Source: Tribonema minus (Eukaryota; Sar; Xanthophyceae; Tribonematales; Tribonemataceae). From it: a DNA stretch of 64,000 nucleotides. The stretch is from the NCBI GenBank assembly GCA_017506865.1, contig JAFCMP010000535.1:62001-126000 (forward strand), in the 5' to 3' direction. A model generated the notes under the pieces. The model saw only the letters and a list, made by a program, of their open reading frames with translations. It had not been told where the DNA came from and did no database searches. The translations under genes were made by a program, and so were the position numbers. Below, in pieces: positions 2,345 through 37,000 of this stretch. Position 1 is the stretch's first letter, and each line of letters opens with the position of its first letter.

Positions 2345-3000
2345 CTTCTCGGGTGCAGGACCCATTTGCAGGTTGAGGCACCAGCAATAAATAAGTATCT
2401 GTTTTTTAGCTATTAGTAATTGCGGCAGCCGCAATTTTAAGTGGAAAAGTTTATCGCTCTGCATATGATATGATGATTTTATTGATGTACTGGCACGTTT
2501 GTTTTTATTGCTGCTGGTCCAGGACAAGAAGTCTCACAACAGGACATGCCATAGAGAATGTTGTGTCAAATGTAAGTTGAACTTTGCATATGTTTGCTTG
2601 GTAATGCAGTTTTTGCTTCAATGTTTGATGATGACACACGATAGGGAGCTAGGGCTGGTTCATAATGTCAGTTTATTGATCGATAAATCACAGCCTTGGG
2701 GCTACTAGGTAGTTATGACTGGAATTATTTTTCAGAAATTTGTTTGATTGCATCTGGACTGATTTAATGCTAGCCCGAAACGCACAACAGTAAGCTTACT
2801 ACTGCACATTGAATGCAATATTTGGACACTGTGACAATGATTGGCACCGGCTGACATGAGGCGCTCCCGGATTTTTGATTTGCTGGCCCCGCCACCTCGA
2901 CTTGTATTGTAACCCAAATTGTATGATTATTTGACGCACAGCCTGCTGAAATCCAGGACACTGTCAAGAGGCCTCATGTATCATAATAATTATTAACGCT
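2345..3000. repeat. Copy 1 of a diverged tandem duplication
   Basis: The stretch matches 3298-4030 in the same order and orientation. Shared landmarks are a GCAGGACCCAT start, a CTGGTCCA-GACAA block, a GTTTGCTTGGTA block, a GATAAATCA block and GCTTACTACTGCA near the end. Divergence and small indels indicate an old duplication with a period of about 1 kb. No coding potential is evident in the duplicated part. Confidence 0.7.
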
Positions 3001-3063
3001 GCACCAACAGGGAGTGTAGCACTACGTTTCACAGCAAGACTGTCACATTCTCTCTTCGCACCT

Positions 3064-3330
3064 ATGTATGGCGCCTTCATACATCTCGGCCATGCTGCCG
3101 AGTGGCAGCTGGAACGCGTCCTCATGATGGTCACTGACGTCCAAAAAGCCATGGAGGACCACTGGCAGATCATCACCGCTGAATGTGGGGCCGGCCTGAA
3201 AAGGCTGATGACTGACTGTTGCAAGGCCATGGCGACCAATCTTCCCCAAAACGGTCGCCACAATGAGAGGCAGGCGAGTACTACTCTCGTTGTAACTCAG
3301 GCGCAGGACCCATCTTCAGCTTGTCAATGA
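3064..3330 (+). CDS. Uncharacterised open frame, possibly one exon
   Basis: An ATG-started frame of 88 codons lies between the two copies of the tandem duplication. Its first 65 residues look amphipathic and protein-like (for example LERVLMMVTDVQKAMEDHW). No family is recognised. The last residues run into the second duplication copy, so only the first part is a coding candidate. It could equally be a chance frame. Confidence 0.18.
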   Translation: MYGAFIHLGHAAEWQLERVLMMVTDVQKAMEDHWQIITAECGAGLKRLMTDCCKAMATNLPQNGRHNERQASTTLVVTQAQDPSSACQ

Positions 3331-4030: not shown

Positions 4031-5531
4031 ATATGCTGCACCTGCCAGTGGTGCAGCAGGAATGCTACAGGAGTACCATGTCAGGTAGTACGATCCACCT
4101 GACTCTCGTTGCTTGATGTCTCCTCACCAGTTGGTGCAAATTGCACACATAAAATGAGGAGCTGCGTGAAACCGGCTACCGTTAGTGACACCTTACATTT
4201 ATATCGCTTTTGGAAAATCCTATTAAATTAATGTCCACAATCTAATTTATAAATAAACATTTTGATTCGTTTTCATGCTACGGTCTTTTGATTCGTTTTT
4301 ATTGACGAAGAATTAATTTTGTAGCAGCCAACCATCATCTGCTTGTCTCACACATAGTACTACATGGCACACATATCCTAAAGCAATGTTGTTGCTGATG
4401 CCTGTCCGAAACTGGTCATATACAGAGATACAGCACCTGCAGTGCGACAACTACCCCCGGCGTGAGCCCCCGCAGGGTGGTGTGCTGTCGAAATGGAGGT
4501 GCTTCAGTTGCTTGTGCGCTATTAAAGTGACGTGGACATTGACATCGTGTGCCAACGCATATTCCCCTTCACGACAATCGGAGGCTTGGGGCGCTCTCAG
4601 AGGCTCATCGTAGGCTTATCACGCTGCAGAAAATTGTGGCACGCGACCTGCACCACTGGCGGGGGGCAAGTGTCTCTACAATGCTCGCACATTGATAGGA
4701 AATGGTCGGAAGAGGTCTCACTCACCAGCACACAGCCCTCCGGGCCGGCCTCAGCTCCCAAGGATTCTTTTCCCGCAGCTCCGAGTCAGGCGGCAGAAGG
4801 TTGCGGGTAGCTTTTCCCCCCACAGCAGCAGCAGCTGCGCGACCTGCCAAAATCCCTTCACCATCCATCCATCGCTAGAGCAGAGAGCGAAGAGTGTGTC
4901 ACAACAAACAATCCAGAGACTCTGGCACTTCACTCGATACGCGATACTCGTCATGCCTGAGTAAATAGAGATGAGTAGCCGGCATCATCCGCGTTGTCGC
5001 AACACCGCGTTGAGAGCTGCCCTGGAACCATGACAGGTGAGCAAAGCAGCTGTTGAAGTCCGCCTGTGCTGGCGCATTCGACCAGAAAACCATGCACCAT
5101 GCAAGAAACTCCTACTGCGTCTTTGTCATGCAAGATCCGACGTTCCGGGATCAGGCCAACGAGGCCGCTGTGCAGTGCGATCCCGTGCCGTGACTCAATG
5201 CGCTCCTCTGTGGCACTTTACTAGCAATCAGAGGGAGCTGCTGCAAGCGCATTGACATCTCAGTCGTGCTGCGACGATTGCGCGTCTTGGCTAGCGGATA
5301 AGATTCAGAGGATCATGTTCTGATCGAGCAGCGCATGATGTGCACGTGGGATCCCCAGCTGCAACATCTCTTGAGTTCGCTGCCATTGCGGTGTTCCCTC
5401 ACTCCGTGTTTTCGAAGCAACCAAGTGTATTGGTCAGACCTGCTATTTCAATCATTAGATGTCGTTCACGCACCAATTTTCGCTCGAATGTGTACGACGA
5501 TTTGCAAGGTGCTCCTTGTCACATTCTTTCG
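4031..5531. other. Intergenic region upstream of the GPI gene
   Basis: No convincing coding exon was found. The stretch should contain the promoter and 5' UTR of the isomerase gene that begins near 5532. No recognisable TATA-like or other core promoter element could be assigned with confidence. Confidence 0.35.
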
Positions 5532-8500
5532 ATGCCCCACTCAGCCATGCCGCTTCCCGTGAGTACTGCAATTTTGTGACCGTCCAGCTGACAGAGGGGT
5601 GGTTTGCAGCATGCCCGTCATCAGCAAGCCAAGCTGCACTGCAGCATGCACGCTGCACTTCGGTAACAAACTGCCTGACCGCCGCCGCCACCGCCGCGCG
5701 CAGCCATCTACCAGAGCGCGGCGTGGGCGGCCCTGAAGGAGCACGTCTCCACGGTGGACGCGCTGCACCTGCGCGACCTCATGCAGGACGAGGCGCGCTG
5801 CGCGGCGCTCACGGCGCAGCACGGCGACATCCTGCTCGACTTCAGCCGCCAGCGTGTCACGAGCGAGACGATGGACATGCTGTTCAACCTGTGCGAGGTG
5901 GGTGCGTGCGCCGCGGCTGAGCATCACCAGCGCTCCGCTGGTGCAGGGCGTTGTTTGGTTGGTCTGGGGCCACATGTGGCGTTGCGTGAGGTGCGCGGTG
6001 ACGGTGCGCCGTCGTCAGCCGTGCGCGTGTCGCGGCGCGGCAGCACCTTGAAGCGCACCGTTTGCGCAGGAACAGCGGATGCGGGCGCGGCTGCGTCCGT
6101 CCCTTGGCACCCTCAGAGTAGTGGTACATGCGCTTTTGTGTGTCGTTGAAACTGCTCAATGGAACGCTCGCGTGTAGGACACCGTGATTTCGGTGGCAGT
6201 TGTTGGCCGCGCGTGCTGAGTCGTGACAGCGCTCCAGATGAGCCACGCTGCGGCGGCGCACGGTGCAAAGTTGTTGCTCAGTCTGCGGGGGCGGGCGGGC
6301 CTGCGCGCTAGCTGCGTTTGTGTCGCTAGCGCCTGCGGAGCTGTGTTTCGAACACCTGATGGGGTATGGATGCGCACGAGTGTACGGTTTGGTGCTACAC
6401 ATGTATACTGCGATGACATCAACAAGGTGTTGCCGCAGCAGCAGCAGCAGTGATCATGAGGGTGTTCGCGCAGCGCATGCCACAGCGGTGGCGGCACGCA
6501 CAGCGCAGCATGCGTGCACCGTGCAAGCGGCGACACATGTGTGTTGGCTTATCATGGCGTGCCTGACAGCAGTGCGCAGTAGCTCATGAGCGCGCGCAAC
6601 TATTTCGGGCAAAGTGCTCGTGTCGGCGGCGCCGCGTGACGGCTCGTGCGCGTTGCACGCGCCTCTGCAGCGCGCAGCGGCGCCCGGCGGCAGCGTGCAC
6701 TTCGTCATCCTTTGCTGCACCAGCATGCATAGCAGCAGGAGCCAGGAGAGCATGTACCCGGCTCGCCACCTGCATTACACCGCTGCCGTGATGCGGATAA
6801 GCACTGCTGTCTTGCAGTAGCAGCGCTGCGCGTCAGTCCTCCTCGAACCCATTTCCGCGCGCGCGACTAGACTAACACACCGACTGCGGCGGCGCGCGCG
6901 CAGGCAGCGGACTTGGAGAGCAAGCGCGCATGTTTGGCGGCAAGAGGATCAACACCACGCTACAATTATGATGAGTAATACAAAAAAAGCTAAAAGTATG
7001 AGTAAGATTTTAACACCAAAAGTTTGAAACCTGTTGATTCTTCTTTTCCTAAAAACCATCCTTTTCTTCTTTACTCCAGTCAAGGTTTTGAAGATTATTA
7101 CTTTCAATGTTTTTGCAGGCGGCGGACCTGGAGGGCAAGCGCGCGGCCATGTTTGGCGGCGAGAAGATCAACACCACGGAGGGGCGCGCTGTGTTCCACG
7201 TGGCGCTGCGCGCGCCGCGCGACGCCACCATGTGCGTGGACGGCAAGAACGTCATCCCCGACGTGCATGAGGTCCTGGACAGGTGCGCTTGCGGTGACTG
7301 CACTTCATGGTTGAACATTGCTAACTTCAAGTTGAGATGTGTCGCGCTGCGCGCGCCGCACGATGCCACCATGTGTGTGGACAGCAAGAATGTCATCCCG
7401 GACGTGCACGCGGTGCTGGACAGGCATGTGCGCCAGCGTGCGGCGCCGCGCGCGTACAGTATGCGCACTTTAAATTTGAGTTTTGCATATTCACTTGAAG
7501 TTTTTGACTTCAAACTTCAAGTTGAAGTGCACGGACGGCAAGAACAAGAACGTCATCTCCGATGTGCACGAGGTCCTGGACAGGTGCGCCGTTATGCTGC
7601 GCGCGCGGCGGCTACTCTGCAACTTCGAGCTTTGCATTCGAAAGGTCGGTGCGCGTGCCATCCACACTTCAAATTTTAAGTGGCATTGAAAATTCAAGTT
7701 GCATTTGATGGTCTCGCGCGCCCTCAAGGTCGCTTTTTACGGGCATACAGTCCTGCCTTGCGGCGAGTGTTGTGTGCAGAGAGCGGGAGGGGATGTGGGC
7801 CGCAAATGCCGCCCCCACGCATGTCGTGAACGGTGACGCGCACGAATCACCATGCTCCCGGACAGGCGGCGCACATGGCTGCGTTACACAGGTGTGCGCG
7901 CTTTGACCAAGTCGTCAAACCCGCGGCTTACCCCCGTGTAAAGTACGCACCATGCAACGCTGCACGGTGACTGCTGCACATGTCGCTCCAGAAGTACACG
8001 AGCAGCGGCGTTCGCTCACCTGTGCTGAGCAGCGACGTGTTGTGATCTTGTGTCGTTCTCAGCCACCTCTTCTTTGTCATTCGTGCCCCCCCCCCCCCCC
8101 CCGCAGGATCGGGGACTTTGCCACGCGCGTGCGCAGTGGCGAGTTCAAGGTGAGCGCTACTGTCGCTGAGCGCTGCTGTCGCTGAGCGCTGGTGTTCGCG
8201 TTGCATGGCCGTCCTTGCGCGCATGTGTGGCTGGGCGTCAGCGAGTGAGAGAACGCGCAGCAACGCAAGCGTGTGGTGGTGGTGTGGGGGGGGAGGGGGG
8301 GGGGGGGTGGCACGCAAGCATGTGATGGTGGTGGTGGTAGGGGGGGGGGGGTTGGGGAGGCTGGGGGGGGGGGGGACTAAGCTGGCATGCGCATGTGCGC
8401 CCGCACGTGTGCGAGCAAGAGAGTGAGGCGCGCGCGTAGGTATGCGTCGGTACGCGTGCCTTTCCATGTCATTCAGTGCCTGCTCCCTCGCACGCTGGTG

Positions 8501-11500
8501 TGATGCGAACATGGGGGGTAGGCGCACGCAGGTGCAGGTGCGCGGATGTCGCTTTGTGCTCTTGTCATGAAGTGCACAACTGTTGTGGTGGGGTGCTTCG
8601 TCTCTGCCCGTAACTGCCATTCTTCGGTGTAACTGCCGCTTCACGATGGGTCCTCCGTGTCATCGCTCCGCAGGGCTGCACCGGCAAGCCGCTGAGGAAT
8701 GTGGTGTCGGTTGGCATCGGCGGGTCGTACCTGGGGCCCGAGTTTGTGTATGAGGCGCTGCGCACGGACAAGGAGGCCGCCGTCCAGGCTGCAGGTACAT
8801 TTGCAGTACATGTGTACTCTGGCGAGATACACAGCAAGTACATGCGTTCATTTGCAGGACATGTGTACTCTGGCAGATGCCACACAAAATGGGCACATGA
8901 CGTCACTGAACTTGCGCTAGGAAGCCTTCACCAACAGTTACAGCAGTGCCGCACGCATATGATGCCACCAAATATGGCGGTACATGCGAACATTTGTTGT
9001 ACATGTGGACCCTGGCGGATACACGGCGGTTCATGCGTACTTGTGCAGTACATGTGTACTCTGGCGGACACATGGCAGTATGTGCGTACTGCCGTGGGCT
9101 GCAGTGGGCACGCTGAATTGTGCATACATCTGCGTACAGTGGCGGATACACAGCAGTACATCTGAGAACCGTTTTGGACATGCAGCAGTACACGCGTACC
9201 GCAGCTGCGCGCGGATTGACGCATGCATTCACCTGAAGGGCTTTTGCGCGCCACAAGCATAATCCACTCGTAGTACAGTTGATGTAGATTGAATCATCTA
9301 TGTAGCTGTTGTGCCAGCCTTGCGCTTCAGACAGATTGGCACAAGTGTACAAGTGTACCCGCGTAGATACGCGGCAGTACACGTGCAGTACATAGCGGGC
9401 ATATGAAAGCGTGGGCACATTTGACGCGCTTTACGATATTGAAAGCAGAAATGGAAACGAATCAAATGAACGTAGAGCGCTAGGTGACAAAAGATGATTA
9501 GCCGCAAGTGCCTTCCACCAATAATTGTGGCCGCTGCTGCTGCAAAGAACACATCTCTGTAGAGGCTCTGCCAGACGTGTGCCGCACGAAAATGGCAGTG
9601 CATGTGAACTCTGATATATATAGCAGTACACGGGGCGCTTATGCTGAAGTACACTTTTCTTACTGAGCTAGCTTCTCTCACTGAGCACTGATGCCCTCCA
9701 CGCGCGCGCACGGCCGTGTGTGACGCTAGCTTTTCTTTCTAAGTACTGTTACGCCTCGCTCCTCTGCAGGGCGCCGCCTGCGCTTCCTGGCGAACGTGGA
9801 CCCCGTGGACGCGAAGCGTGCGCTGGAGGGGCTGGACCCGGAGGAGACGCTGGTGGTGGTGGTGAGCAAGACGTTCACGACGGCGGAGACGATGCTCAAT
9901 GCGCGCACGCTGAAGGACTGGCTGGTGAGCCACCTCAAGGGCAAGGCGACGACGGAGGCGATCACCAAGAGCCACATTGTGGCCGTGAGCACGAGCGTCG
10001 AGAAGTGAGTACGCACTGTGAGGTGTACAGCGTAGTATGATCAGCATCAAGGTACGCATGTAGTTCTGAAGTATGTATGTATGCATGTCTGCATGTTATC
10101 AAAAGACTGGGAACGAGGCACGGTGGCCGCAGTGGCAATCATCATGAGCCACATCTTGGCCGTCAGCACCGGCGTTGAACAGTAAGAACAGCCTGCCACA
10201 TCACAACGCGCTGTGTGGCGAAGGACGTGCTGAGACGTGCGCACGCTTTGAATGCCTGCGGCAACAGTTGAAGTTGAACTTCACCTTGCCGCCGCCGCGC
10301 GGCCGCCGCTGCCGCCGCCGCCGCTGCTCTGCAGGTGCCAGGCCTTCGGCGTGGACGCCGCCAACATCTTGCTCAGACGCACGCACAAGGCACTTTGAGC
10401 GCGGCAACAGTTGAAGTTGAACTTCACCTTAACGACGCGCCGTCGCCGCCGCCGCTGCGCTCTGCAGGTGCCAGGCCTTCGGCGTGGATGCGGCCAACAT
10501 CTTTGGCTTCTGGGACTGGGTCGGCGGGCGCTACAGCGTCTGCAGCGCCGTCGGCGCGCTGCCACTCGCGCTGCAGTACGGCTACGACGCTGTTAAGGCC
10601 TTCCTGGCGGGCGCGCACGACATGGACAGGCACTTCCTGGAGGCGCCGCTGCGCCAGAACCTGCCCGTGCTGCTGGGCGTGCTGGGGGTGTGGAACTCGA
10701 CGTTCCTGGGGTCCGCGTGCCGCGCGCTGCTGCCGTACTCGCAGGCGCTGCTGCGCTTCGCGGCGCACATCCAGCAGGTATGCAACACATGCCATGCATA
10801 CCTACCTTGGTCTGTGGAAGTCCACCTCTTCTGCGCCTGCATGTGGTCGGCCTTATTTTGTGTATGGCGATGGGGCGGTGGCTTAGGGAAGCTGGTTCGC
10901 GCGCGCGTGTGATGACCTGCTAGTGCCTGTGCATGCCGTCGTGCGCACAGTGCGAGAGTGAGCCGCGTGCAGGTCAAGTGGGTGGCAGAATGCGTAGTCC
11001 AGAGGACTAGACCATGAGCAACGTGTAGGCAGCATGCGTACGCGTGCGCGCGCCCCCGCAGTGCAGTGGATGCAGGCGGAAGTTGCACACGACGACTGTG
11101 CCGGATAAAGACCTAAAAGTAAGAACCGAGCATGTGCGTAGTGGGAGGAAGCGCATGCTGAGCGCTGCTGCCGTACTCGCAGGCGCTGCTGCGCTTCGCG
11201 GCGCACATCCAGCAGGTGCGCATGCGCGCGCGGGCCACTCAACCTGAGCGCTGGCTGACACATCACTTCAGCGCTGGTGTCCTGAGCACTGCTGCGCTTG
11301 TGTCCTGAGCGCTGATGATGCGCTAATGTCCTGAGCACTGCGCGTCTACGCACGTGCGCTCATGCGGTCGTGTGCGCACCTCGCGAGAGTGAGTCGCATA
11401 CAGGTCAAGTGGGTGGCAGGATGTGTAGTCGAGGGGATTGCGGCTAGACCGTGACCGACGTGTGCGCAGCGCGCGCTGGGCGCTGCTGCCGTACGCGCAG

Positions 11501-14500
11501 GCGGCGCCGCGCTGTGCGGTCCGCATTGCAGCGGGTGCGCTGTGCGTGTACGCCCCCAGAGTGCAATGGACGTAGGCGGAAGTTGCACACGGCGACTGTG
11601 CCGGTTCAGGACTTGACAGCGGCAAGCGAGCAAGTGTGTGGAGGAAAGGAAGCGCATGCTTAGTGCTGCTGTCGTGCTTGCAGGCGCCTCTGCGCCTCGC
11701 AGCGCACATCCAGCAGTTGCACGCACTCCGCTTTTGCGCGCTTCGCAAGAATGGCGAGCAAGCAGTAGGTAGTGGGGGCAGCGCATGGGTGCATCAGAAC
11801 GCGCGCGCGCGCATTCCGCGCAATGCACGTTTTGCAAGAGCAAGTCGGATGCGGGTAGAGGGGGGTTACAAACGCGTCGAGGCATGTATGTATGCAGTTT
11901 GGCTCTGAGCCCTTGCCAGACGGCGCAAGCCCGCTTGCGATCTCTCGCGGCAGCAGATGCGTGTGAAGCATTTGTGTACGTAGCATTTGGGTGCCACGCA
12001 CACCGTGCTTGCCGCCCTTGCGCTGCCAGACGACGCAAGCCTTGCGATCTCTCGCAGCGGCAGATGCGTGTACAGCGACTGTGTTTGTAGCGCTAGGTGC
12101 AACGCGCACCGTGTGCATTCATCGATGATGCCGCACACTCGCCGCTTCAAAGGTGCGCGTTTGCTGAGTCTCTCACTCACTCACTCACTCGCTCACTCAC
12201 TCGCGTACTCGCTCGCCCACGCGCCGCAGGTGGACATGGAGAGCAACGGCAAGCGCGTCGCCATCGACGGCACGGAGCTGCCCTTTGAGGCTGGAGAGGT
12301 GGGTTAGGGTTAGGGCTAGGGTTGTGGTAGAGCAGTTGCGTGACGCTGTTGCCTCAAAAGGCGCTTCACATGCAGTTGCAAAAATTGCGGAAAGGTTCAG
12401 AGTGGGGGCTCAACAGCAGTTCATGACCCCAATGTTTCCAGATGGACACGTATTGCGTGTACAAGCGCACGGTGACGGGCGGGCTGCACGAGGGTAAAGG
12501 CGAGGGTTAGAAGTTGAATTAGGGTTAGAAGTAGGGTTAGGGGGCTGCGGGCTGCGACCGTCAACCCTGCCCCCTCTGTCCCTGAGTTGGGGGCAGGAGC
12601 AGGGCGAGGGCGGCGTTCTCCTGGTTTGCATGGCATCGTCACAGCTGTACATAGCGTGGCTGCATGCGAGGCCACAGAGAGAGAGCTTGGTGCGAGTAGG
12701 CGATCCCTAAAGAGCTGCCAGACTACATCTGTCGCGTGTGTAGCGTGCAACCAGATGCGCACACAAAACTTGATCATGAGTGGAAGGTGAACTTGACACG
12801 CCGTGCCGGCTGTCACGTGCATGATACGCGCCTGTGGCGAATCGAAGCCCTTGTTCTGCATGCGGAAGTTGACGCACCTGCAGCGTACGGCGTGTGAGGT
12901 CGCCGTGCGGATGCTCAACTGCCCTCACAGTCTTTTAACGGTTAGGGTAGGTCTAGGGTTAGGGTTAGGGTTACCTTGGGTTAGGGTTGAGGCGCTTGCA
13001 GACTGCATGTGGTTCATTTGTGGCGTGCGCCATCTCGGTGCCGCAGCGCACGTGTTACTCGTAATACAATGTCGCCCAGCATCAACGCCACTCATGCGCC
13101 GCTGCAGCTGCTGGCACCGCGCTGCATGCGCGCATGCCTACCACGCTCCAATGAGCGGAGTCTCGAATACAGCGCCTCGGCGCACGCCATTCATATGCCT
13201 GCCTGGGTTTCTCTCCCCCAGGTGGACTCTGGCGAGCCTGGCACCAACGGCCAGCATACCTTCTCGCGAAGGAGCCGATTGAAGAGCTACGCTGAGCGCT
13301 GACGCCACCTGCACATACATACCCCTGCCTGGTGCCCCCCCCCCCCGAGGTGGACTCTGACGAGCCCGGCACCACATATACATACCCTTGCCTGGTGCCA
13401 AGGTCATGTTGAAGGGTGCGTCACGCGGTGGGCGCCGCGCGTGGAGAGACGACTCCATTGCGTTCCGCATTCACCACGCTCCATTGCACTTATGCGAACA
13501 TGCGTACGTATGTACCTCTGGTTTCTCTCTCTTGCCAGGTGGAATCTGGCGAGCCCGGCACCAACGGCGAGCACACGTTCTCGCGGATGAGCGGATTGAA
13601 GCGCCAGGCTGAGCGCTGACACCGCCAGTACATACATACCCCTGCCTGGTGTCCCCCCCTCCCCCCCCAGGTGGACTCTGGCGAGCCCGGCACCAACGGC
13701 CAGCAAACTTTCTTGCAGATGAGCAGATTGAAGCGCCATGCTGAGCACTGACGCCACCCGTACATACATACCCCTTCGTGGTCTCTCTCTTTTCAGGTGG
13801 ACTTTGGCGAGCCCGGCACCAACGGCCAGCACAGCTTCTACCAGCTGATCCACCAGGGGCGCATTGTGCCGTGCGACTTCCTGGGGTACTGCGAGAGCCC
13901 CGCGCCGGTTTCGCTCGCGGGCGAGCCCGTCACCAACCACGACGAGCTTATGAGCAACTTCTTCGCGCAGGCGGACGCGCTGGCGTACGGCAAGGTATGT
14001 ATGGTACTGCTCAACAATACATACATACCGTAGTGAGGTCATGAGCGCTCGCGGGCGAGCCCGTCGCGAACCACGACGAGCTCATGAGCAACTTCTTCGC
14101 GCAGGCGGACGCGCTCGCATACAGCAACGCATGTTTGGTGCCGCTAGACGATGCATACCTGCCTGCCAAAGTGAGGTGTAATGAGCGCTCCCGGGCAAGC
14201 CCGTCGCCAACCATGACGAGCTCATGAGCATTTTCTTTGCGCCGGCGAATGCGCTCGCGTGCGGCACGGTGTGTATGGTCTCTAGACTATACATACCTAC
14301 CATACTTCGAAGTAGTTTACGTAGTGAGGTCATGAGCGCTCGCGGGCGAGCCAGTTGCGAACCACGACGAGCTCATGAGCAACTTCTTTGCACAGGCAGA
14401 CGTGCTGGCGTACGGCAAGGTATGTACTCCTATGTGGGTATGTATGGTGTACACACTAGCCATAGTGAGCTAGAGCGCTCGTTTGGGACCCCACTGTACC

Positions 14501-16157
14501 CACGTCCTCTACACTTCATGTGCCACTAAGCGCAGCTCATGAGCAACTTCTATTTGCAAGGGGGCGGATGCGCTCGCGTATGGCAAGCTACGCAGGTGTC
14601 CATCCTGGCACACAGACCAGCCATAGCGAGCTCCTGAGAGCGATCATTGGCAAGCCTGCGTCGCGAACCGCGATAAGCTCACGAGCAGCTTGTCGGCGTA
14701 GGCGGACGCGCTTGCGTACGGCAACACACTCTTATCACTCACTCTTATCACGCCAAGTGCTGAGCGCTGCAACATCTTTTTCTGCGCGCCGCCGCTGCAG
14801 ACTGCAGAGCAGTGTGCGGAGGAGGGCGTGCCCGAGCCGCTGCGCCCCCACAAGGTGCGTCTCGCGTCGCTGTTGAAGTTGTAGCGTTCAGCGCGCACGT
14901 GTGCTGCTCCTCCTCCACAGCCGCTGAGCCCCTATGCGTGTTGGCGTAGGCAGCTTCCGCTGCGCCCCCATGCCGCAGACACTCCGCAGCATTTGCACTG
15001 CCGTTTGTCGATGCTGGCCGCTGTAGCCGCTTTGCTGACATTGAGCATGTGCACGGTGCCACACACGCGTGGGCGCAGGTTCACTGTTCCCCGCATGTGT
15101 TGTATTCATAGCCAGAGCAACCGCAGAAGCAGGCGAGCGCAGCGGACGAAGCAACGTTTGTGCCGCAATGCCAGGCGCATCAGCAGCACTTCAGTATCAT
15201 CATGCATGCCATGTATTTGCATATCGGGATGCGCGTGTGAACGCTGCCCGGCTGCCTGCGGCAACGCTCTGCAGCAGCTATTGACTTCGTCCCGATGTGA
15301 CTGGTGGACATAGCCGGTGTACGCAATGGCATGCGTGTGTTTGTCCCCAATGCACAATGTGATTTGGTGACATACTGCCACTTCACTTCAAAGTATGTGC
15401 AATGACAACTGCGTGTGTGTGTGTCATCCGCGCAGGTGTTCCCCGGCAACCGTCCCAGCTCGAGCCTGCTCTTCCCCAAGCTCAACGCCTTCTCGCTGGG
15501 CCAGCTTCTCGCGCTGTACGAGCACCGCACGGGCGTGCAGGGCTTCATCTGGGGCGTCAACTCCTTTGACCAGTGGGGCGTCGAGCTCGGCAAGCAGCTC
15601 GCCTCCAAGGCAAGTTCAACACTTGAAGTTCAAAATTATCAGTGCCATTGTATTGGGGCGCATGGGAGGGAGGCACCGTCAAGGTGCTGGCATTTCAGTG
15701 TTGTTGTTGAACTGCGACCAGTGGGGCGTGGAGTCGGCAAGCAGATCGCCTCCAAGGCAAGTTCAGACAGCTGACCGATTTCTTCAATCACAAAATAAAC
15801 TTGCGCAACCAACATGGTGTTGTTTCTGCTGATTGCTGCTGCAGGTGCGCACGGAGCTCTCCAAGGCGCGCAGCAGCAAAGCCGTGCCCGAGGGCTTCAA
15901 CCCCTCCACCACCGCCATCCTCGCGCACTGCAACATCACACGATGACTGCCTAACCAAAGAATTTTCTATCACAAAATGACGTTAGCGTTTCTGCTGATC
16001 GCTGCTGCAGGTGCGCACGGAGCTCTCCAAGGCGCGCAGCAGCAACGCCGTGCCCGAGGGCTTCAACCCCTCCACCACCGCCATGCTCGCGCACTTCCTC
16101 AAGCACAGCGCTGCCGGCAAGCTCGCCGCTGCGGAGGAGCTCGCCACCGCCAAGTGA
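5532..16157 (+). CDS. GPI: Glucose-6-phosphate isomerase, cytosolic plant/algal type, 12 exons
   Basis: Interconverts glucose-6-phosphate and fructose-6-phosphate in glycolysis and gluconeogenesis. Exons are 5532-5558, 5715-5897, 7119-7282, 8107-8149, 8674-8794, 9770-10004, 10468-10777, 12230-12298, 13797-13994, 14801-14854, 15436-15609 and 16011-16157. All phases agree and give about 574 residues, the normal family length. The SIS-type core is visible as [10 protein letters not shown] (exon 5), [13 protein letters not shown] (exon 6) and the family signature DWVGGRYS near residue 274. [14 protein letters not shown] lies near residue 390 and the second signature, [16 protein letters not shown], ends exon 11. 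No targeting peptide is seen, and the resemblance is to plant cytosolic PGI rather than the animal form. The start is ATG 5532, with an alternative in-frame ATG at 5547. Intron 11 uses a GC donor (gcaagt at 15610). Introns contain many partial exon copies, listed separately. Confidence 0.93.
6904..6960 (+). pseudogene. Partial copy of GPI exon 3 (5' end) in intron 2
   Basis: About 57 bases repeat the first part of exon 3 (7119 onward), including the preceding CAG acceptor. The copy has small deletions, including loss of a codon-sized piece, that break the frame. It is followed by AT-rich intron sequence. Confidence 0.85.
7341..7423 (+). pseudogene. Partial copy of GPI exon 3 (3' end), first ghost in intron 3
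   Basis: About 27 codons of the exon 3 3' part are repeated and stay open in the exon frame. Counted by hand, seven codons differ synonymously and three non-synonymously from exon 3. The exon-end donor context has become GACAG followed by GCATGT, a possible GC donor. Confidence 0.85.
7527..7582 (+). pseudogene. Partial copy of GPI exon 3 (3' end), second ghost in intron 3
   Basis: The copy covers the last 17 or so codons of exon 3 and ends in the same GACAG/GTGCGC donor context as the true exon. A six-base insertion duplicates an AAGAAC element. Confidence 0.8.
8797..9215 (+). repeat. Degenerate tandem repeat of about 45-50 bp in GPI intron 5
   Basis: Units share GCAGTACATGTGTACTCTGG followed by a GCGGATACAC element and a GTACATGCGTAC element. 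At least five degenerate units occur. Scattered single units reappear near 9340-9400 and 9595-9640. The array starts directly at the 5' splice site of intron 5, whose own sequence (GCAG|GTACATTTGCAG) resembles the unit. Confidence 0.75.
10112..10182 (+). pseudogene. Partial copy of GPI exon 6 (3' end) in intron 6
   Basis: The segment repeats the end of exon 6, around the residues [15 protein letters not shown], and reaches the position of the 5' splice site. The GTGAGT donor has changed to GTAAGA in the copy. Several substitutions are present. Confidence 0.75.
10262..10403 (+). repeat. Tandem copy of intron 6 end plus start of GPI exon 7
   Basis: A unit of about 141 bp is repeated just upstream of exon 7. 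It includes a GTTGAAGTTGAACTTCACCTT motif, the GC-rich acceptor tract, the CAG acceptor and the first 36 bases of exon 7 (ghost exon 10335-10370). The true unit follows at about 10404-10510. Confidence 0.85.
10955..11720 (+). repeat. Tandem repeat of about 430 bp in GPI intron 7 with three ghosts of the exon 7 end
   Basis: Copies of the 3' end of exon 7 (residues [17 protein letters not shown]) lie at 11161-11215, 11470-11534 and 11662-11716. The first is nearly perfect and keeps a GTGCGC donor, the second is scrambled, and the third is substituted. Flanking intron motifs such as GGTCAAGTGGGTGGCA and GGCGGAAGTTGCACAC also recur, so larger units were duplicated. Confidence 0.85.
11915..12115 (+). 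repeat. Short tandem duplication in GPI intron 7
   Basis: Two copies of about 95 bp share CCAGACG-CGCAAGCC, TTGCGATCTCTCGC and GCAGATGCGTGT, then a GTGCCACGCACACCGTG-like end. The motif GCGATCTCTCGC is also a small palindrome-like element. Confidence 0.7.
12299..12545 (+). repeat. TTAGGG-type interstitial telomeric motifs at the start of GPI intron 8
   Basis: Exon 8 ends at 12298 and the intron begins immediately with GTGGGTTAGGGTTAGGG, so the donor is embedded in a telomere-like tract. A second degenerate cluster lies at about 12505-12545. Confidence 0.85.
12936..12990 (+). repeat. Second TTAGGG-type tract in GPI intron 8
   Basis: Several TTAGGG units separated by degenerate variants occur here, on the sense strand of the gene. 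Confidence 0.85.
13205..13720 (+). pseudogene. Four ghosts of the GPI exon 9 start in intron 8
   Basis: Copies of the exon 9 5' end (residues [12 protein letters not shown]) start near 13222, 13350, 13540 and 13671. Most carry a pyrimidine-rich tract and a CAG acceptor, while the second has GAG. Between them recurs a spacer with GCTGAGCGCTGACGCCACC and GTACATACATACCCCTGCC, so the unit is exon start plus intron. The true exon 9 follows at 13797. Confidence 0.9.
14048..14728 (+). pseudogene. Five ghosts of the GPI exon 9 end in intron 9
   Basis: Copies of the last 27 or so codons of exon 9 lie at 14048-14128, 14188-14268, 14339-14419, about 14532-14586 and about 14651-14725. The first three are fully open in the exon frame. 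The copy at 14339 ends in the same GGCAAG|GTATGTA donor as the true exon. The first ends before GCATGT, a possible GC donor. The fourth and fifth have an indel or stop. Spacers share GTGAGGTCATGAGCGCTC. Confidence 0.9.
15712..15756 (+). pseudogene. Ghost of the GPI exon 11 end in intron 11
   Basis: Repeats the coding end around [14 protein letters not shown] together with the unusual GC donor (TCCAAG|GCAAGTTC). A small deletion breaks the frame. Confidence 0.85.
15845..15946 (+). pseudogene. Duplicate of GPI terminal exon 12 with its own stop (possible alternative last exon)
   Basis: The acceptor GCTGCTGCAG and the first 30 or so codons are almost identical to exon 12 (16011-16157), with two amino-acid changes. 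The copy then diverges and ends after LAHCNITR at an in-frame TGA (15944-15946). Use of this exon would shorten the enzyme by about 15 residues. It is either a decayed copy or an alternative terminal exon. Confidence 0.8.
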
Positions 16158-17394
16158 GCGCAGCGCTGCCGCCGCTGCTGCCGGCTGAGCTCAGTGCTGC
16201 TGCTGCTGCCAAGTCAGCTGCCGCTGCTGCTCGAAGCTGAGCGCTGCTGCAAGATCAGCGCAGCGCTACTGCTGTCAGTCCTGGGCACGGCGCACAGCAG
16301 CCCTTGCCAGCCGGCCCACGCAGGCTGCAACACACCTAAGGTCTGTTGCTTGGTGTGCGGGGGGGGGGGGGGGGGAGGGGGGGGGGTGCACTGCGTGGGG
16401 CCATCAGGCCCTTGCGGCCCCACCACCCTTGTGCAAGAGTCGCGGTAGTATTGGTGGATTTTGAGATAGGGGGAAGGGAAGGGGGAGGAGGTACGATTGG
16501 CAGCAGTGCATTGCGCCAAGACGGCCAGCAGGTGTTCCTGAGTTCAAGTGCACACTTACCGGCTGTCTGCAGCCATTGATACAGGGCGGTGCCATAAGTA
16601 AATGCAGCGCTGATTTTGTCCATCGTGCTTTTGCCTGGTCAGTGTCATGCTGCTGTTGGTCGTGGTTGCTCCATGCTGCTCGGGTCGAGCGCGCTTTGCC
16701 ACGCTCTGCATGGCATGTGTGGGCAAAATTTGTCCAAGTCTCTGGTCCGTGTCTCTGGTACAAGTGGGCAAGAAGATACCGCCTTGCGCGCTAGACTAAG
16801 ATCTGATGTCTTTGACATGACAATGAAGCAGCTGGTTGCATGTTCAAAATGGAAGATGGGGCCAGCCTTTGTTCGACTTGAAAAGGTGACTCAAAAATTC
16901 TTGTTCAACCAAGCCCATCACGGTAGATGCAGCTGCATCAGCTGTGAGGACAAAGCAATATGCTTTGTGCCACAGAATGGTCACAGACCCCGGATGTCGA
17001 TGTGCATTTACAAGTAGGGCCAAGAAGTTGCGAGCGCGCGCACCATTCTGCTGCAGCAGCTCGCAACTGGGACACAACAACTGCTCATGAGCTGGAGAGC
17101 TGCATGAATCAACTGCTACTGTAATGAATCATCACACTGCAAAACGCAGCATTGTGCGTACAAAACTCGTGCGTGCCAGTATCGCGCACAGCACGCCACT
17201 CGACAGCGCTGCAGTGACTGCAGCAGGTTGCGCGAGCGCGCTGAGAACGCAGCAAGCGCATCGCCCCTCTGTCAACGCAACTCGGACAAGCATCGACCTA
17301 GCTCCCCCGCATTCGTCCGTGTTACACATCTGCCCGACACACACTAAGGTGCGGCCTTCATGCTAAAGATAGGGTTAGGGCTAGGCAGCAGCGC
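16158..17394. other. No gene recognised; G-rich tract
   Basis: Lies between the 3' ends of two convergent genes. It contains two long G runs at about 16359-16387. A frame of 133 codons at 16616-17017 (+) has no recognisable features. A short TTAGGG-like motif lies at 17370-17385. The 3' UTRs of both neighbours probably fall here. Confidence 0.4.
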
Positions 17395-22341: not shown

Positions 22342-22486
22342 CCAAAGCGACTTCATGTAATATGGCACCCGCAGTCGTTGCAATGGTTGCGCCGCTTGCG
22401 TGGTCGCAAATGTCCGAACCACCACACTCCTTGCAGTGGTGTCACTGCCTGTTGTGCTCGCAAATGCCCGACCCCCCACAGTGCGT
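22342..22486 (-). pseudogene. Decayed C-terminal repeats of the first Cys/His-repeat gene
   Basis: Directly downstream of the stop at 22487, the minus strand still encodes recognisable repeat pieces (CGGSGICEHNR and CKECGGSDICDH). They are interrupted by the TGA at 22487-22489, a second TGA and a one-base deletion. The paralogue at 25791 is open through the equivalent region. The 5' splice-like AG|GTGAAC at the first stop leaves a small chance of splicing instead. Confidence 0.75.
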
Positions 22487-24148
22487 TCACCTGCGGCGCT
22501 CCCGGCCGTGTTGGCATATGCCCGCGCCGCCGCAGTGCTTGCACTTGCGGCGTTGCTTGCCGTGCTCGCACATCCCTGCACCGCCACAGTCCTTACAGTA
22601 ATAACGGTTCCTGCCGTGCTCGCATATGCCCGACCCCCCACAGTCTTGGCAGTAATAACGCTTCCTGCCGTGCTGGCATATCCCCACGCCACCACAGTCC
22701 TTACAGTAATAACGGTTCCTGCCGTGCTGGCATATCCCCACGCCACCACACTCCTTGCACTGGTGCCGCGGCCTGCCATGCTGGCATAGCCCTGCGCCCC
22801 CACAGTCCTTGCACCTGGGGCGCTCCCTGCCGTGCTCGCACATCCGCACACCACCACAGTCCTTGCACAGATAACGCTGCCTGTCGTGTTCGCATAGACC
22901 CGCGCCGCCGCAGTCCTTGCACCTGCCGCGTCGCCTGCCGTGCTCGCACATCCCCGCACCACCACAGTCCTTGCAGTAATAACGTCGCGTGCCGTGCGGG
23001 CACAGTTTCTTCTGCTGCTCCGGTCGCGGTCGCTTGGCACCCCCTTCGCCATTTGCCTTCGCTGTCCCGGCTGCACCGCCAGCGCCGCCAGTGGCAGCGC
23101 GCGATCGCACCGCACTGAGTGCAGCTGCTGCACGTCGGCGGGGGATGCCGTTTGCGACACCGGCGATGCGTGCTGACTTCCTCACCGGCTTGGACTTGGC
23201 GCTGCTGTCCGAGTGCCAGACGTCCCTGCCGGCATCGCTGCTCGCACCCGCGTCCGAGCCGCCGCTGCAGGCGTCACCAGCGCCGTCATTCGCCTCGCTT
23301 TCATGACAGCTGCTCTCAGCCACCTCTTGGCTGACGTCGGCATCAACGTCCAGCGAGTGGATGCTATACTCATCGCCGCTGTAGTCATCATTGCCTCCGC
23401 CGGCATCACCGGCTGAAAACGCCTCCCCACCCCCTCCGTTGACAGTCCCTGTAGGAGCGCCGCTGTCACCGCTACCACTGGCGGCTCGCGTTGGCGGCTG
23501 CGGTGCACGTATACGCTCACGTTGTGGCTGCTGCTGGCTGGTTGCAAATCCGTGCGCTGTTCGCGCCCCGTCCGTTGTTTGTGGCGCTTCCGCTTCCATC
23601 GCCGCCATTGCAGCCTGTCGCTGCATCGTGTCTTGGCACTGCATGTTCTGCTCAACCTCCATAGCGCCCCGCTGACTGGCGATTGTGACCCTCAGCTGCC
23701 TGTTCTCCTCCTCAAGCTCCCGCACCCTCTCCTGTTGCCGCCCGTTCTCCTGTTTAAGCTTTCGCATCGTGACGCCGGGCTCATCTTTCAGCTGCTGGAT
23801 TGTGATGCCCTGCTGCCGGTTCTCTTCCTGCAAAAGGCACAGTTGCTGTTGTTGTTGTTGCTCCTGTTGCGTGTACTGCTGTTGATGCCGCTGTTGCTCC
23901 TGCTGCTGTAGCTGCTCCAGCTCCTCTTGCTGCTGCAAGAGGTCCGCCAGCTGCACCACAATCCTCCTCTGCTGCTGCAACAGCGCACGCTTCCGACCTT
24001 GAGTCACTTCGATCGCTCCCATACGTGCACTGGCGGCGCCCGTCGCCGACACCATCTGCGCTGCGCCTGGCAACAGAGCTGGAAGTTGGCGCCGAATTGC
24101 AGGCAAGCCCGCCTCAGAGGCCTGCTGACCCAGCGTGAACCCACTCAT
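22487..24148 (-). CDS. Cys/His 18-residue-repeat protein with Gln-rich coiled coil (paralogue 1)
   Basis: Single open frame of 553 residues from a true ATG. Residues about 50-165 are Gln/Glu/Leu-rich and should form a coiled coil. The middle is acidic and Ser/Gly-rich, with the motif YSGDEYSIHSLD conserved in the paralogue. Basic clusters RKSARIAG, IPRRRAAAA and KRPRPEQQKK suggest nuclear localisation. Residues 381-553 hold nine full 18-residue repeats, C-x-H-[GD]-x5-C-x2-C-G-G-x3, and part of a tenth. With three Cys and one His per unit, each repeat could bind a metal ion, probably zinc; that is inferred. Similar C-x-H-G repeats occur, as I recall, in unicellular algal proteomes, with no function I can name. 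Compared with paralogue 2 it has more repeats but loses its last units to stop codons. Confidence 0.8.
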   Translation of the reverse strand: MSGFTLGQQASEAGLPAIRRQLPALLPGAAQMVSATGAASARMGAIEVTQGRKRALLQQQRRIVVQLADLLQQQEELEQLQQQEQQRHQQQYTQQEQQQQQQLCLLQEENRQQGITIQQLKDEPGVTMRKLKQENGRQQERVRELEEENRQLRVTIASQRGAMEVEQNMQCQDTMQRQAAMAAMEAEAPQTTDGARTAHGFATSQQQPQRERIRAPQPPTRAASGSGDSGAPTGTVNGGGGEAFSAGDAGGGNDDYSGDEYSIHSLDVDADVSQEVAESSCHESEANDGAGDACSGGSDAGASSDAGRDVWHSDSSAKSKPVRKSARIAGVANGIPRRRAAAALSAVRSRAATGGAGGAAGTAKANGEGGAKRPRPEQQKKLCPHGTRRYYCKDCGGAGMCEHGRRRGRCKDCGGAGLCEHDRQRYLCKDCGGVRMCEHGRERPRCKDCGGAGLCQHGRPRHQCKECGGVGICQHGRNRYYCKDCGGVGICQHGRKRYYCQDCGGSGICEHGRNRYYCKDCGGAGMCEHGKQRRKCKHCGGAGICQHGRERRR

Positions 24149-24631
24149 GCTGGAGACGCAGCAGCCTTGCGATGCACTTGCGTGTGCGTCGTGCGTCCAT
24201 GCAGCAAACTTTGGTCCAACTTCAACTTCAAGCAGTGAAGTTGAAGTTTTTTTGTTTGATCACGGAGAAGATGGCAAGGCGACTTACAGCACCATCTCTG
24301 TGCGCCTTATTGCTTCGAACAGACAGGCGTGATGGGGGTGCGCTCGGTTCAGAAGGGCGGCGCCGCAGCCGGCTGAATGCTGCGATCTTGGGGCCCCTGC
24401 TATCCTCTCCCCTTGACAGCAAAGTCTACTGCCTGAAGGGCTGTCCGTACAGAAAGGACGATGCGCAGGAAACTTTAAGGGCCTCCAGGGCAACTGTCAG
24501 ATCCAGCACAACCAAGAAGGCAGACTGATGAAATGCTGTCAGATGCCAATTTGAAGTGATTTGAACATCTCACAGGTTGTTGCATATGCATATGATGTGC
24601 ACCGCACAGCACGATGGCAGTCACCGCTTAA

Positions 24632-25118
24632 TCAAGTCAAAGCGGTGTCAATTTGCCGACTTCTGCAAAAAAGCAATGAATGCTTTTGCACGCCTTAATT
24701 CAAGCTGATTTGTAGTTCTGCCTTGCGTGCAAATGGCTCCAGCATCCATATGGCCAGTTTTGACCCGATCACCTCAGAATCAGTGCTCAGAGTTTGACTG
24801 ACGCCTCACGCCATAAGAAGATCTTACCTGCTCAATATACGCATTGCAACCCTGCAGCCCCCCCCCCCCCCCTCCCCCTTGTGCCGCGCTTCGCATGACT
24901 GCGCTGACATGCTGTGCAATTGTGCCGCGGCTGGAAGGGGGAGTCCTCTCCCCCCCCCCCCCCTATCCCACCCACCCCCAGACCTCATCACGCCAGCGCG
25001 TGTGCTGCCAAGCCGCCCCTCACCTGTGCAGTGACCCCGCATCCAGCGCCTCCATCTCCTGCTTGCAGAACAGGCCGCAGCGCTCGAGCGCAGTGCGCAA
25101 CAGTGCCGCGGCAAGCAT
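24632..25118 (-). CDS. Possible small three-exon gene, or 3' part of a larger one
   Basis: Exons 25118-25024, 24851-24828 and 24662-24632 join in phase to give a 49-residue product (MLAAALLRTALERCGLFCKQ at the start). The donors are GTGAGG and GTAAGA. The third exon follows a good TTTTTTGCAG acceptor. The second acceptor follows a G run instead of pyrimidines, which weakens the model. The first exon looks helical and protein-like. No family is recognised. It may continue upstream. Confidence 0.28.
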
Positions 25119-25790
25119 TGTAATGGGTGTGACCGCTGGTCATTGACTGGAACAGTGCGCCCTCCAATGAGCTGCTTTTGATGACTGCTCATGACGACCC
25201 TCCGCGAGTTGCTTAAAGCAAGACCATAGAGTGCAAATAGCAAATATCACAGCCGCATATTGAGGTACACCTGTGACAGCAGGTGCGTCATGGCGACGCT
25301 GACCCTTGTCACCCTTGCACGGGAGTTAAGCACGGTCGGTGAAAAGCAGCTACAGTATACTGAAGTGAACTCACAGCTGAGACAACGCCTCCGCGCTTGC
25401 ACAAACGTTAGTGTCATGTATGTGATTGGCAGCGCGTCTTTGAGACTCTCTGCGTCGTAACTGCGCAGCATGTCACTTGTTGCCAGCACGCAAAACATGC
25501 ACCACGGTCAGGTCACATGTGCTTAGCAATGCCATGCAGCTTTGAAAGAGCGCACAGGCTGGTGGCTCACACAGCAGATGAACCTGGTATAATTCATGTA
25601 CTTCATGGGATGCACGCAGCAAAGCAGGCAACACAAGGCCACTAGGGCCGGTGCGGGTGATGGCGGCATCCTGACACCAGTGTGGCAGACGAGGAACAAG
25701 AAGTAAAAAGCAGGCAGATTTTGACTGAGGCAGTGCAGGATTGTGGCACTCCCGGAAGAGATAGACCAAGTGCATGATACTGGAGTGCCT
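25119..25790. other. Spacer between paralogues; 3' flank of paralogue 2
   Basis: No gene was recognised. The part at about 25520-25790 resembles the 3' flank of paralogue 1 (about 22140-22340), so the duplication extends beyond the coding region. Confidence 0.5.
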
Positions 25791-34087: not shown

Positions 34088-37000
34088 CTACTGGATTGCC
34101 CTTGCCTGCTGGTCTGCGCCCGCGCCATTGACAGCCGCGTCCCCATCGCTGACAACTTCAACTTCAACGCCCGCCGCTGCGGCATCGCCTGCGTCAGTTG
34201 CCGGCGCCGCGCCCCCGATTGCGGCGCTGCTGTTTCCTGCCGCCAGCGCCGACGCGCCAGTGTGCATGAGCAGCAGCTGCTTGATGGTCGCCAGCTCGGC
34301 GCGCAGCTCTGCTGTCTGCGCGTTCACCTGCGCCGTCAGCAGCGCCTGCAGTGGTAGGGAAGAGAAACATTGGAGCTTCGATGGTGATGAAGTTGAAGGT
34401 GTGAGGTGCATGTGGAGCGTGCATGGAAGTGTCGACACGCTTCAACGTCTAAGCTGGTGCCAGCTCGGCGCGCAGCTCCGCTGTCTGTGCATTCACCTGC
34501 GCTGTCAGCAGCGCCTGAACGGTGGCAGCGCAGGTCAAAGTTGAAGCTTTAATGATGATGAAGTGAAAGGGTGTGAGGTGCGTTCGGTGGCAAAGAGCAA
34601 TGTTGTAAAGATTTTCACTTCTGAGAAGCATGGTGATGAAAATCAGGGTGTAGCGCAGCTGTGATAAGGTTTACAAGGCTGTGAGGTGCATTTGAAGGCT
34701 GTGAGGTGCGTTTCAAGCGGGGTGGTATTGCATGGACAGTGTCAACACACTTCAACATTGATGTTAGTGCTAGCTCGGCGCGCAGCTTTGCCGTCTGCGC
34801 ACTCGCTTGCGCCGTCAGCAGCGCCTGGTGGCAGCTGCACAGGTGATGTTGGAGTATGAAGTTGAACTTGGGGATGGGGAGCTGCTTTTGCGAAGGGTGG
34901 TGGCATCGATCGGACAGCAATGACGCCTGTCTGCTTTGAATGAAGAATGAAGCCCCGAGTGCGCACAGACGTGCAGTCTTGCAGAAACGATATGCGTACA
35001 GCGTCACCACTCAGAGCGAGGCACTGGGACTCGCCTTGTCGTCCTTCTCGCGCTGCGCCGCGAGCGCACCTTCATGTCACAGCTGTGCACTCTTTGCATG
35101 AACGATCTATGCGTACACACAGCCACGACTCAGGCTGAGACTCAGGACTCGCCTTGTCGTCCTTCTCGCGCTGCGCCGCGAGCGCCTTCATGCTCACAGC
35201 CGTGCAGTCTTGCAGAAACAACCTGTGTGTGTACAGTGCCGCGACTCGGAGACCGAGACTCGGGACTTGCCTTGTCGTGTTTCTCGCGCTGCCTTCATGT
35301 TGCAGTCTTCTGGAAATGATCTGCGTACAATAGCCACGACTCGGACTGAGACTCAGAACTCGCCTTGTCGTCCTTCTCGCGCTGCGCGGCGAGCGCCTTC
35401 ATGTTCTCCACCGCCTCCCCCAGCGCCGCGCTCTGCGCCTGCATGGCGCCGCTCAGCTTGCCAAACTCCTCCGCCAGCCTGAGCGTTGCTGACGCGCCGT
35501 CGGCAGCGTCGTCGGCATCGCCCGCGGCATCGGCACCGGGCCTGCACGGATGGATGCGCGACACGACGGTAGCGGCGGGCGCGGCACGCGTTGTAGCGTC
35601 AGCAGAGCATTGGCGCGTCAGCAGAGTGGTACTGCCGATCGCGGTGACGGACACGTCCGGTTCTGCCAGTGGGGCGTGTGCGGCGCGTGCAGCGGCGTCG
35701 CCGTCACCCGCAGCATCGGCGCCGGGCCTGCGATTGCAGGAGCTGATGGTATGGCCTACTGTTGTAGTTTCAGTACTCATATGGCGTCAGGAGTGGCCAT
35801 TTACCTGCACGGATGCGCGCAACGGCCGCGGCGCGCGCGGCACGCATTGCGGCGTCAGCAGAGTGGCAGTGACCACGGTGACGGACTCCTTCAGTTTCGT
35901 GGGTAGTGGCGCGTGCAGCGCGCGCGCTGAGAGTTGCCAGTGGAGCAAATGATGCGAGTCCGTGGTGGCGACAGCGGCCTAAAGGGCCCTTATAGAAGTA
36001 GTACAATGTTGACGTGTGCCTTGACAAATTTGGAGTTGCAAATTTGTTGTGGCTATGCAAGTCATTAATCATTTTCTTTTGACAGTATGGTGGTATGGAT
36101 TTTGTGTGCACAAATGGGCATGGATGTGCCGTGCACGATGGCCATCCACAGTGTTGCTGACACAAGGTGGCGGTGCCATCGGCGCTGTCGTGAGCGCTGA
36201 CCCTGCCAGCGGCAACGTGTAATCGAGGAGTGATCGCTTCACCCCTAGCGATGACGCACACCTTGCAGAAGGTCCCGCCTACAGAGAGTGATGAACCACG
36301 GCCTGTGCGAATGACATGGCATGTGTCACACATGATGTGTGCGCTGAGTGCTGCCGACAATGTGCCGTGCTGTTGGACAGCATCAGCCGCCTCACCACGG
36401 GGGGGGGTGCGGGGTCGTTTTGCAACTTGGTGTGCACTGCAGGCCGACTGACGTTTTGAGCTCTGCACTTGCACCAGACATTGAGAGTATACTGCCTCGG
36501 GCATCAGGAGCGCAGGACGGTACGGTATGCACCGCAGTCGCCACATGTAGGCGACCCTACCCCAACCCTACCCCTAACCCCCACCTACCCCCTACCCCTA
36601 CTACATTTGTCGCGCATTAATGTGCTTCTAGCTGACCTCGGCGGACGCCCCCCCCTCCTCCGGCTCGCGACCCCCCCCCCGGGCGACCGGCCCATGGAGG
36701 GGCTCTCCAGCTCGTGCGCGGCACCAGCAGCACCAGCAGCGCCAGCAGCAGCAGCGTCGCCGTTCTCCAGACGCCGCGGCGACGCGGGAGCGGGGGGGTG
36801 CGCGCCACCCCCCTCGCGCGCGCGCGTGGCGCCGACCACCCCCAGCCCTGCCGCCAGCAGCGCGCCCGGCAGCAGCAGCTTCCGCCACAGGGGGTCGGAG
36901 TCAGAGTCGCCTGTGGGGGAAGCGGTTAGGTGGGGATCATCGGCGGCGGAGAAGCCGCCGACGCCGGAGCGCGTCATCGCCTCGGAGATCTCCTCGGGGG

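Follow-up and report, generated by a model that had tools for sequence, protein, structure and literature searches.

In the yellow-green alga Tribonema minus, introns of the glucose-6-phosphate isomerase (GPI) gene, and of several further genes in this genome, contain partial copies of neighboring exons that in nearly all cases reach the exon edge. The copies, their polarity, adjacency to the parent exon, spacing and codon pattern, and their presence in other genes and in sampled DNA, are direct observations. The explanation we consider probable is short tandem duplication acting genome-wide, such that duplications within introns or across a single splice junction would survive, others would be purged, and the surviving copies would decay without constraint.

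The GPI gene and the exon copies in its introns

The window, a 64,000-nt stretch of contig JAFCMP010000535.1, encodes GPI at 5–16 kb. Exons 2–12 of the 12-exon model give a single unbroken alignment to a solved GPI (query residues 22–569) with two small gaps only, both within exon 6, and the protein shares 99% identity over 97% with the public Tribonema minus sequence P0002. With the start placed at ATGACAG (5030–5036, encoding MTA), the model matches P0002 save for six residues (ASSTLE) that follow exon 11 in P0002; therefore, GPI starts at 5547 and 5611 are probably wrong. The six-residue P0002 insertion falls where the model places the GC donor of exon 11, and its source is the beginning of intron 11 rather than any copy. 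GC donors are apparently used by two genes, at window position 15610 in GPI and at the downstream edge of exon 35364–35541 of the PEX14 gene, and copies of both of these exons retain the GC. Rfam gave no match within 5000–16500. The exons of the model are as follows.

5030..5036, plus strand: exon 1, probable first coding exon, ATGACAG before GT
5704..5897, plus strand: exon 2, no copies found
7119..7282, plus strand: exon 3, parent of 3 copies
8107..8149, plus strand: exon 4
8674..8794, plus strand: exon 5
9770..10004, plus strand: exon 6, parent of 1 copy
10468..10777, plus strand: exon 7, parent of 4 copies
12230..12298, plus strand: exon 8
13797..13994, plus strand: exon 9, parent of 9 copies
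14801..14854, plus strand: exon 10
15436..15609, plus strand: exon 11, GC donor, parent of 1 copy
16011..16157, plus strand: exon 12 (last), parent of 1 copy

A BLAST comparison of exons with introns (E ≤ 1e-3, search space fixed at 2e7) identified 19 significant partial exon copies, where the original prediction had counted at least 18 and had named the same introns as copy-bearing: intron 2 (1 copy), 3 (2), 6 (2), 7 (3), 8 (4), 9 (5) and 11 (2). It had also held that each copy adjoins its parent exon and that nearly all include the splice junction. Both points were borne out, as all 19 copies lie in the intron adjoining the parent exon, all 19 are on the sense strand, and 18 extend to within 3 nt of the exon edge, the remaining one ending 14 nt short. 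As a control, 100 dinucleotide shuffles of the GPI introns gave a mean of 0.03 matches at the cut-off, with a best E of 4e-4. Identity to the parent exon ranges from 79 to 98%, in agreement with the earlier view that copies of different age coexist. The statement that these introns are built largely from exon copies, however, was too strong: recognizable exon copy accounts for 1090 of 8745 bp of intron (12.5%), and local duplication of any kind for 2796 of 8745 bp (32%). The copies are not all independent events; most of those around exon 9 belong to arrays whose units repeat at 132 and 134 bp, and grouping by overlap yields nine junction-type and three intron-only groups.

Exon copies found by BLAST (exon positions in brackets, with identity to the parent) and two intron-only duplications are listed here.

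6904..6959, plus strand: copy of exon 3 start (1–60), 85%
7341..7423, plus strand: copy of exon 3 end (82–164), 88%
7545..7583, plus strand: copy of exon 3 end (126–164), 92%
8797..9068, plus strand: intron-only local duplication, intron 5
10134..10178, plus strand: copy of exon 6 end (188–232 of 235), 80%
10335..10370, plus strand: copy of exon 7 start (1–36), 94%; upstream intron co-copied (10258 on)
11152..11215, plus strand: copy of exon 7 end (247–310), 95%; 54-nt identical run; conversion candidate
11470..11519, plus strand: copy of exon 7 (247–296 of 310), 82%
11665..11716, plus strand: copy of exon 7 end (259–310), 87%
11914..12113, plus strand: intron-only tandem duplication (110 bp), intron 7
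13222..13264, plus strand: copy of exon 9 start (1–43), 91%
13350..13374, plus strand: copy of exon 9 start (1–25), 92%
13539..13581, plus strand: copy of exon 9 start (1–43), 88%
13671..13722, plus strand: copy of exon 9 start (1–52), 87%
14046..14127, plus strand: copy of exon 9 end (116–197), 93%
14186..14266, plus strand: copy of exon 9 end (116–196), 84%
14337..14419, plus strand: copy of exon 9 end (116–198), 89%
14534..14587, plus strand: copy of exon 9 end (149–198), 80%
14649..14724, plus strand: copy of exon 9 end (124–197), 79%
15716..15756, plus strand: copy of exon 11 end (133–174) with GC donor, 93%
15845..15929, plus strand: copy of exon 12 start (1–85) with acceptor, 98% (97.6%)

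The exon 12 copy (15845–15950) retains the acceptor and the reading frame; judged from its sequence, it would terminate GPI prematurely at an in-frame stop and is a candidate alternative last exon. Intron 5 also carries an interspersed 95-bp repeat (window 9450–9545), found at 80–92% identity in either orientation. This repeat accounts for 41 of the 42 matches listed in a whole-gene DNA search of the genome (39 of 889 candidates scored) and is likely a small mobile element.

Exon-edge copies in other genes and close duplications across the genome

A PF00342 profile search gave 22 matches, at the window GPI and two other loci, and the introns of the two GPI paralogues also carry copies derived from exon edges of the same gene, 6 in one paralogue and 11 in the other. 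Nine copies are present in a pheophorbide a oxygenase (PaO) gene in one sampled locus, five in the PEX14 gene within the window and two in an RRM gene. These three genes were identified by Pfam and were chosen after duplications had been seen beside predicted exons; the window gene (GPI1) was likewise picked in the knowledge of duplications there. Together, the six genes contain 52 copies, all adjoining the parent exon and on the same strand, and 50 of the 52 end no more than 5 nt from the exon edge. No copy among the 52 comprises a complete exon together with its two splice sites. A 53rd match was left out of this count, being a non-adjacent, minus-strand (antisense) match in PEX14 with an E of 4e-4. 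Exons were counted in genes backed by the GPI alignment, PF00118 or Pfam. The gene finder or paralogue alignment supplied boundaries of PaO exon 2903–3109, the last exons of the GPI paralogues L039 and L040, the exons of both chaperonin genes considered below, and the PEX14 exons outside the Pfam domain. The PEX14 copies are as follows.

35689..35727, minus strand: copy of the start of exon 35364–35541
35153..35195, minus strand: copy of the end of exon 35364–35541
35035..35077, minus strand: copy of the end of exon 35364–35541
34769..34824, minus strand: copy of the start of exon 34171–34345
34455..34514, minus strand: copy of the start of exon 34171–34345

Exon-edge copying is therefore shared among genes but uneven. 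Two chaperonin genes, picked by homology alone and supported by PF00118 matches, gave no exon-to-intron match at the cut-off over 12 exons; the first of them, whose best match is CCT eta, shows one junction-type cluster by self-comparison despite having no BLAST copies.

The two GPI paralogues resemble each other in where some copies begin. Copies of one exon start at exon positions 95–97 and 97–99, and those of another at 184 versus 167, 180, 181 and 197, while the intervening intron units differ and look unrelated. Any of three causes would account for these similar breakpoints: chance, a hotspot, or old duplications that conversion has held similar. Within L040 (reverse complement 6663–7450), three of four exon copies keep bases of the paralogue exon that are absent from the present L040 exon, and the sequences suggest that these copies may record an older state of the exon.

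The genome from which the window is taken comprises 158 Mb in 554 contigs. Twenty 10-kb loci (200 kb in all), evenly spaced on five long contigs, were sampled without regard to content. Close direct duplications number 109 in this sample; they form 50 clusters and occupy 18,418 of 200,000 bp (9%), and three of the 20 loci lack any close duplication. Spacing peaks at 100–200 bp, with 91 of the 109 under 350 bp, whereas the same loci hold six direct duplications more than 1.5 kb apart and one inverted duplication. Among young duplications whose homology fills the unit (n = 5), the surplus homology at the joint is 1, 1, 2, 3 and 40 nt. By the calls of an imperfect gene finder, which merges genes and takes some copies for exons, 32 of the 50 clusters lie clear of every predicted exon. 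The original prediction that duplication across splice sites recurs thus stands in part: co-copying of intron flanks, short spacing, direct orientation and varied ages all speak for recurrent duplication, but the process is tied neither to splice sites nor to GPI.

Other repeats and motifs were seen in passing. Arrays of a 54-bp repeat occupy window 22365–26094. Across the window and the 20 loci, dispersed short TTAGGG-type stretches, the motif TTGAAGTT/AACTTCAA and the pair CTGAGCGCTG/CTGAGCACTG are strongly over-represented, and TGAGC[AG]CT is sense-biased in predicted introns (50 vs 24). The motif TGAGCGCT has strand counts of 12 versus 0 in the GPI region. As a breakpoint marker it was considered and set aside, being over-represented across the whole sample, and its positions give no clear support to a role as a branch point.

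Proposed origin, survival and decay of the copies

We propose that the genome makes frequent short direct tandem duplications, with units mostly of 60–350 bp, and that these can arise anywhere. They would probably form by fill-in and end joining at staggered breaks, a route suggested by their sizes, direct orientation and mostly near-blunt joints, which resemble those of staggered-break duplications. A duplication within an exon or of a whole exon would harm the protein and be lost, presumably through selection, which would explain why only junction copies are seen. One that falls in an intron or spans a single junction would be absorbed by the intron because splicing still has one intact site. 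Such a junction event would leave an acceptor with the exon start in the upstream intron, or the exon end with a donor in the downstream intron, and later events would multiply the same unit into arrays. The copies would then decay without coding constraint, presumably unused in splicing, and the intron-derived parts would decay roughly two to three times faster than the exon-derived parts, which would inflate the apparent share of junction events. Gene conversion of copies by their exons may also play a part.

Exon edges as a preferred target were our first suspicion. A process that favors them, through breaks at the boundary or an RNA-templated step, would produce copies that stop at the edge, and by our own reading 6 of 10 units in the window GPI gene lose homology no more than 10 nt from the exon edge, compared with 8 of 60 and 4 of 48 in simulations with equal decay rates. 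Junction clusters also exceed what those simulations predict. Random duplication followed by purging and equal-rate decay gave a junction share of 24% (86/354) or 26% (76/296), whereas the eight genes contain 28 junction and 19 intron-only clusters and the four genes picked by homology (L039, L040 and the two chaperonin genes) contain 11 and 10. Junction copies are thus commoner than the equal-decay simulation predicts, and simple decay fits poorly. The similar copy start positions in the two GPI paralogues, despite differing intron units, would likewise suit targeting. However, of 26 exon-copy pairs from the GPI-gene array families, 17 show homology in the intron flank too (p ≤ 0.05 each, uncorrected), as do 19 of 33 copy-copy pairs (p ≤ 0.05, uncorrected). 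Against untargeted duplication, the intron part is detectably homologous in only four of nine primary units of the window GPI gene and not in the other five, though the exon part is. Against targeting, duplications confined to introns or lying away from predicted exons are plentiful, and the two chaperonin genes have no exon-to-intron matches at all over their 12 exons. When introns decay two or three times faster in the simulation, whose outcome depends on the ages and unit lengths put in, junction events make up 36% and 47% of those detectable, and 13 of 34 and 24 of 33 units, respectively, end within 10 nt of the edge. Faster intron decay would therefore cover both the junction excess and the stopping at edges; more indels, biased detection or conversion from the exon could each lie behind it. 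Since it explains the figures similarly, we demoted exon targeting to a rival that we regard as quite unlikely, and we retain untargeted duplication with unequal decay.

The fate of the copies bears on whether they serve a function, as alternative or poison exons or as decoy splice sites under selection. By alignment, in which a few placements are uncertain, 40 of the 52 copies keep the splice dinucleotide, and with 12 lost a systematic loss of decoy sites is not evident. The exon 12 copy, at 97.6% identity, has a good acceptor and runs to an in-frame stop. Retention of this kind would be expected of functional copies, yet the 19 window copies differ from their parents at 29 of 363, 29 of 360 and 61 of 361 sites in codon positions 1, 2 and 3, and the equal change at positions 1 and 2 speaks against coding constraint; no coding selection on these copies is seen in the codon positions. 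Of their 119 mismatches, 63 are non-synonymous and two create stops. The synonymous share is 0.454 against 0.291 expected without constraint, and in our own reading this excess, like that at third positions, would come from synonymous changes in the parent exons themselves. Copies are also less similar to each other (mean identity 0.819, 33 pairs) than to their exon (0.872, 26 pairs), as expected if they drift. Given also that no copy among the 52 spans a whole exon and that the one difference from P0002 has its source at the beginning of intron 11 rather than in a copy, we hold selected function to be very improbable. Still less credible is an assembly artefact, in which alleles or reads were misjoined. 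A perfect 456-bp tandem duplication in the sample (L017:7633–8547) is either very young or such an artefact, but the window GPI copies are partial and only 79–98% identical to their parents. Misassembly had been named at the outset as what would overturn the finding, and it is unsupported: the copies are decayed and graded in age, and three separate GPI loci carry copies of their own, as do three other genes.

Unconstrained decay may be locally reset by the parent exon. Two exon 7 copies lie in mutually duplicated blocks whose flanks are identical at 89 of 113 sites, and over their 52 exon-derived nucleotides they show 0 and 7 private changes; from this comparison, exon sequence may have replaced that of the clean copy (11152..11215). 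Across 33 of the 36 GPI-gene copies, mismatches show no general clumping (p = 0.50), and exon-to-copy conversion therefore does not appear to be general. A more speculative extension, which we think unlikely, is that exon-edge copies form a self-renewing compartment, with duplication feeding the introns and conversion from exons keeping some copies fresh. If so, they would be a reserve of near-functional splice edges for new introns, alternative ends and repaired exons, and the similar breakpoints of the paralogues would be old duplications that conversion kept similar even as the intron parts were replaced.

Significance and relation to known systems

Few source sequences for introns have been found, according to PMC4974935. 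Most known cases of intron DNA arising by tandem duplication concern single genes; in Tribonema, a single small algal genome seems to offer enough oriented, age-graded duplications for their rate, size, joints and survival by position to be measured. The evidence bears on the growth of existing introns, and the birth of an intron is not demonstrated; the same duplications could nonetheless show how often a junction duplication leads to a new intron or an alternative exon. The Tribonema minus genome is therefore a good place to study intron growth. For annotation, the copies call for caution, given that they keep plausible splice sites and that several were called as exons by the gene finder.

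Tandem exon duplication, as in mutually exclusive exons, also repeats exon sequence beside its parent, but 0 of the 52 Tribonema copies contain a whole exon. Introners represent another recurrent growth of intron DNA. The Tribonema copies differ in being local to the parent exon, with no dispersed family found (39 of 889 candidates scored).

Closer parallels come from duplications that turn exon sequence into intron. In a potato gene, a duplication across one intron-exon boundary became intronic (PMC4974935), and there as here an exonic piece becomes intronic and inherits the splice signals of its parent; that case is one event that made a new intron, whereas in Tribonema many events of varied age enlarge existing introns. 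Introns of the Rogers model or of segmental duplication, described for ATP2A1 and fission yeast (PMC4974935) and for Drosophila (PMC2891723), likewise convert exon to intron sequence by tandem duplication. As those accounts present them, they need an AGGT within the duplicated exon stretch, while the Tribonema unit contains an existing splice site.

The duplications themselves are most like products of break repair. Small tandem-duplication insertions of 10–1000 bp from break repair are described in rice (PMC7407515), and fill-in by Pol alpha-primase followed by end joining yields small tandem duplications (PMC8355091). As far as these sources describe them, such duplications are, like ours, direct, adjacent and tens to hundreds of base pairs long, and here the joint homology is low in four of the five young cases. 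What sets Tribonema apart, as far as the genome was sampled, is the density of the duplications and their retention in introns. Searches of an open literature collection showed no report of exon-edge copies in Tribonema introns. The process is thus of a known kind, and, as far as we have searched, its density and its retention as exon-edge copies across the introns of several genes are new.
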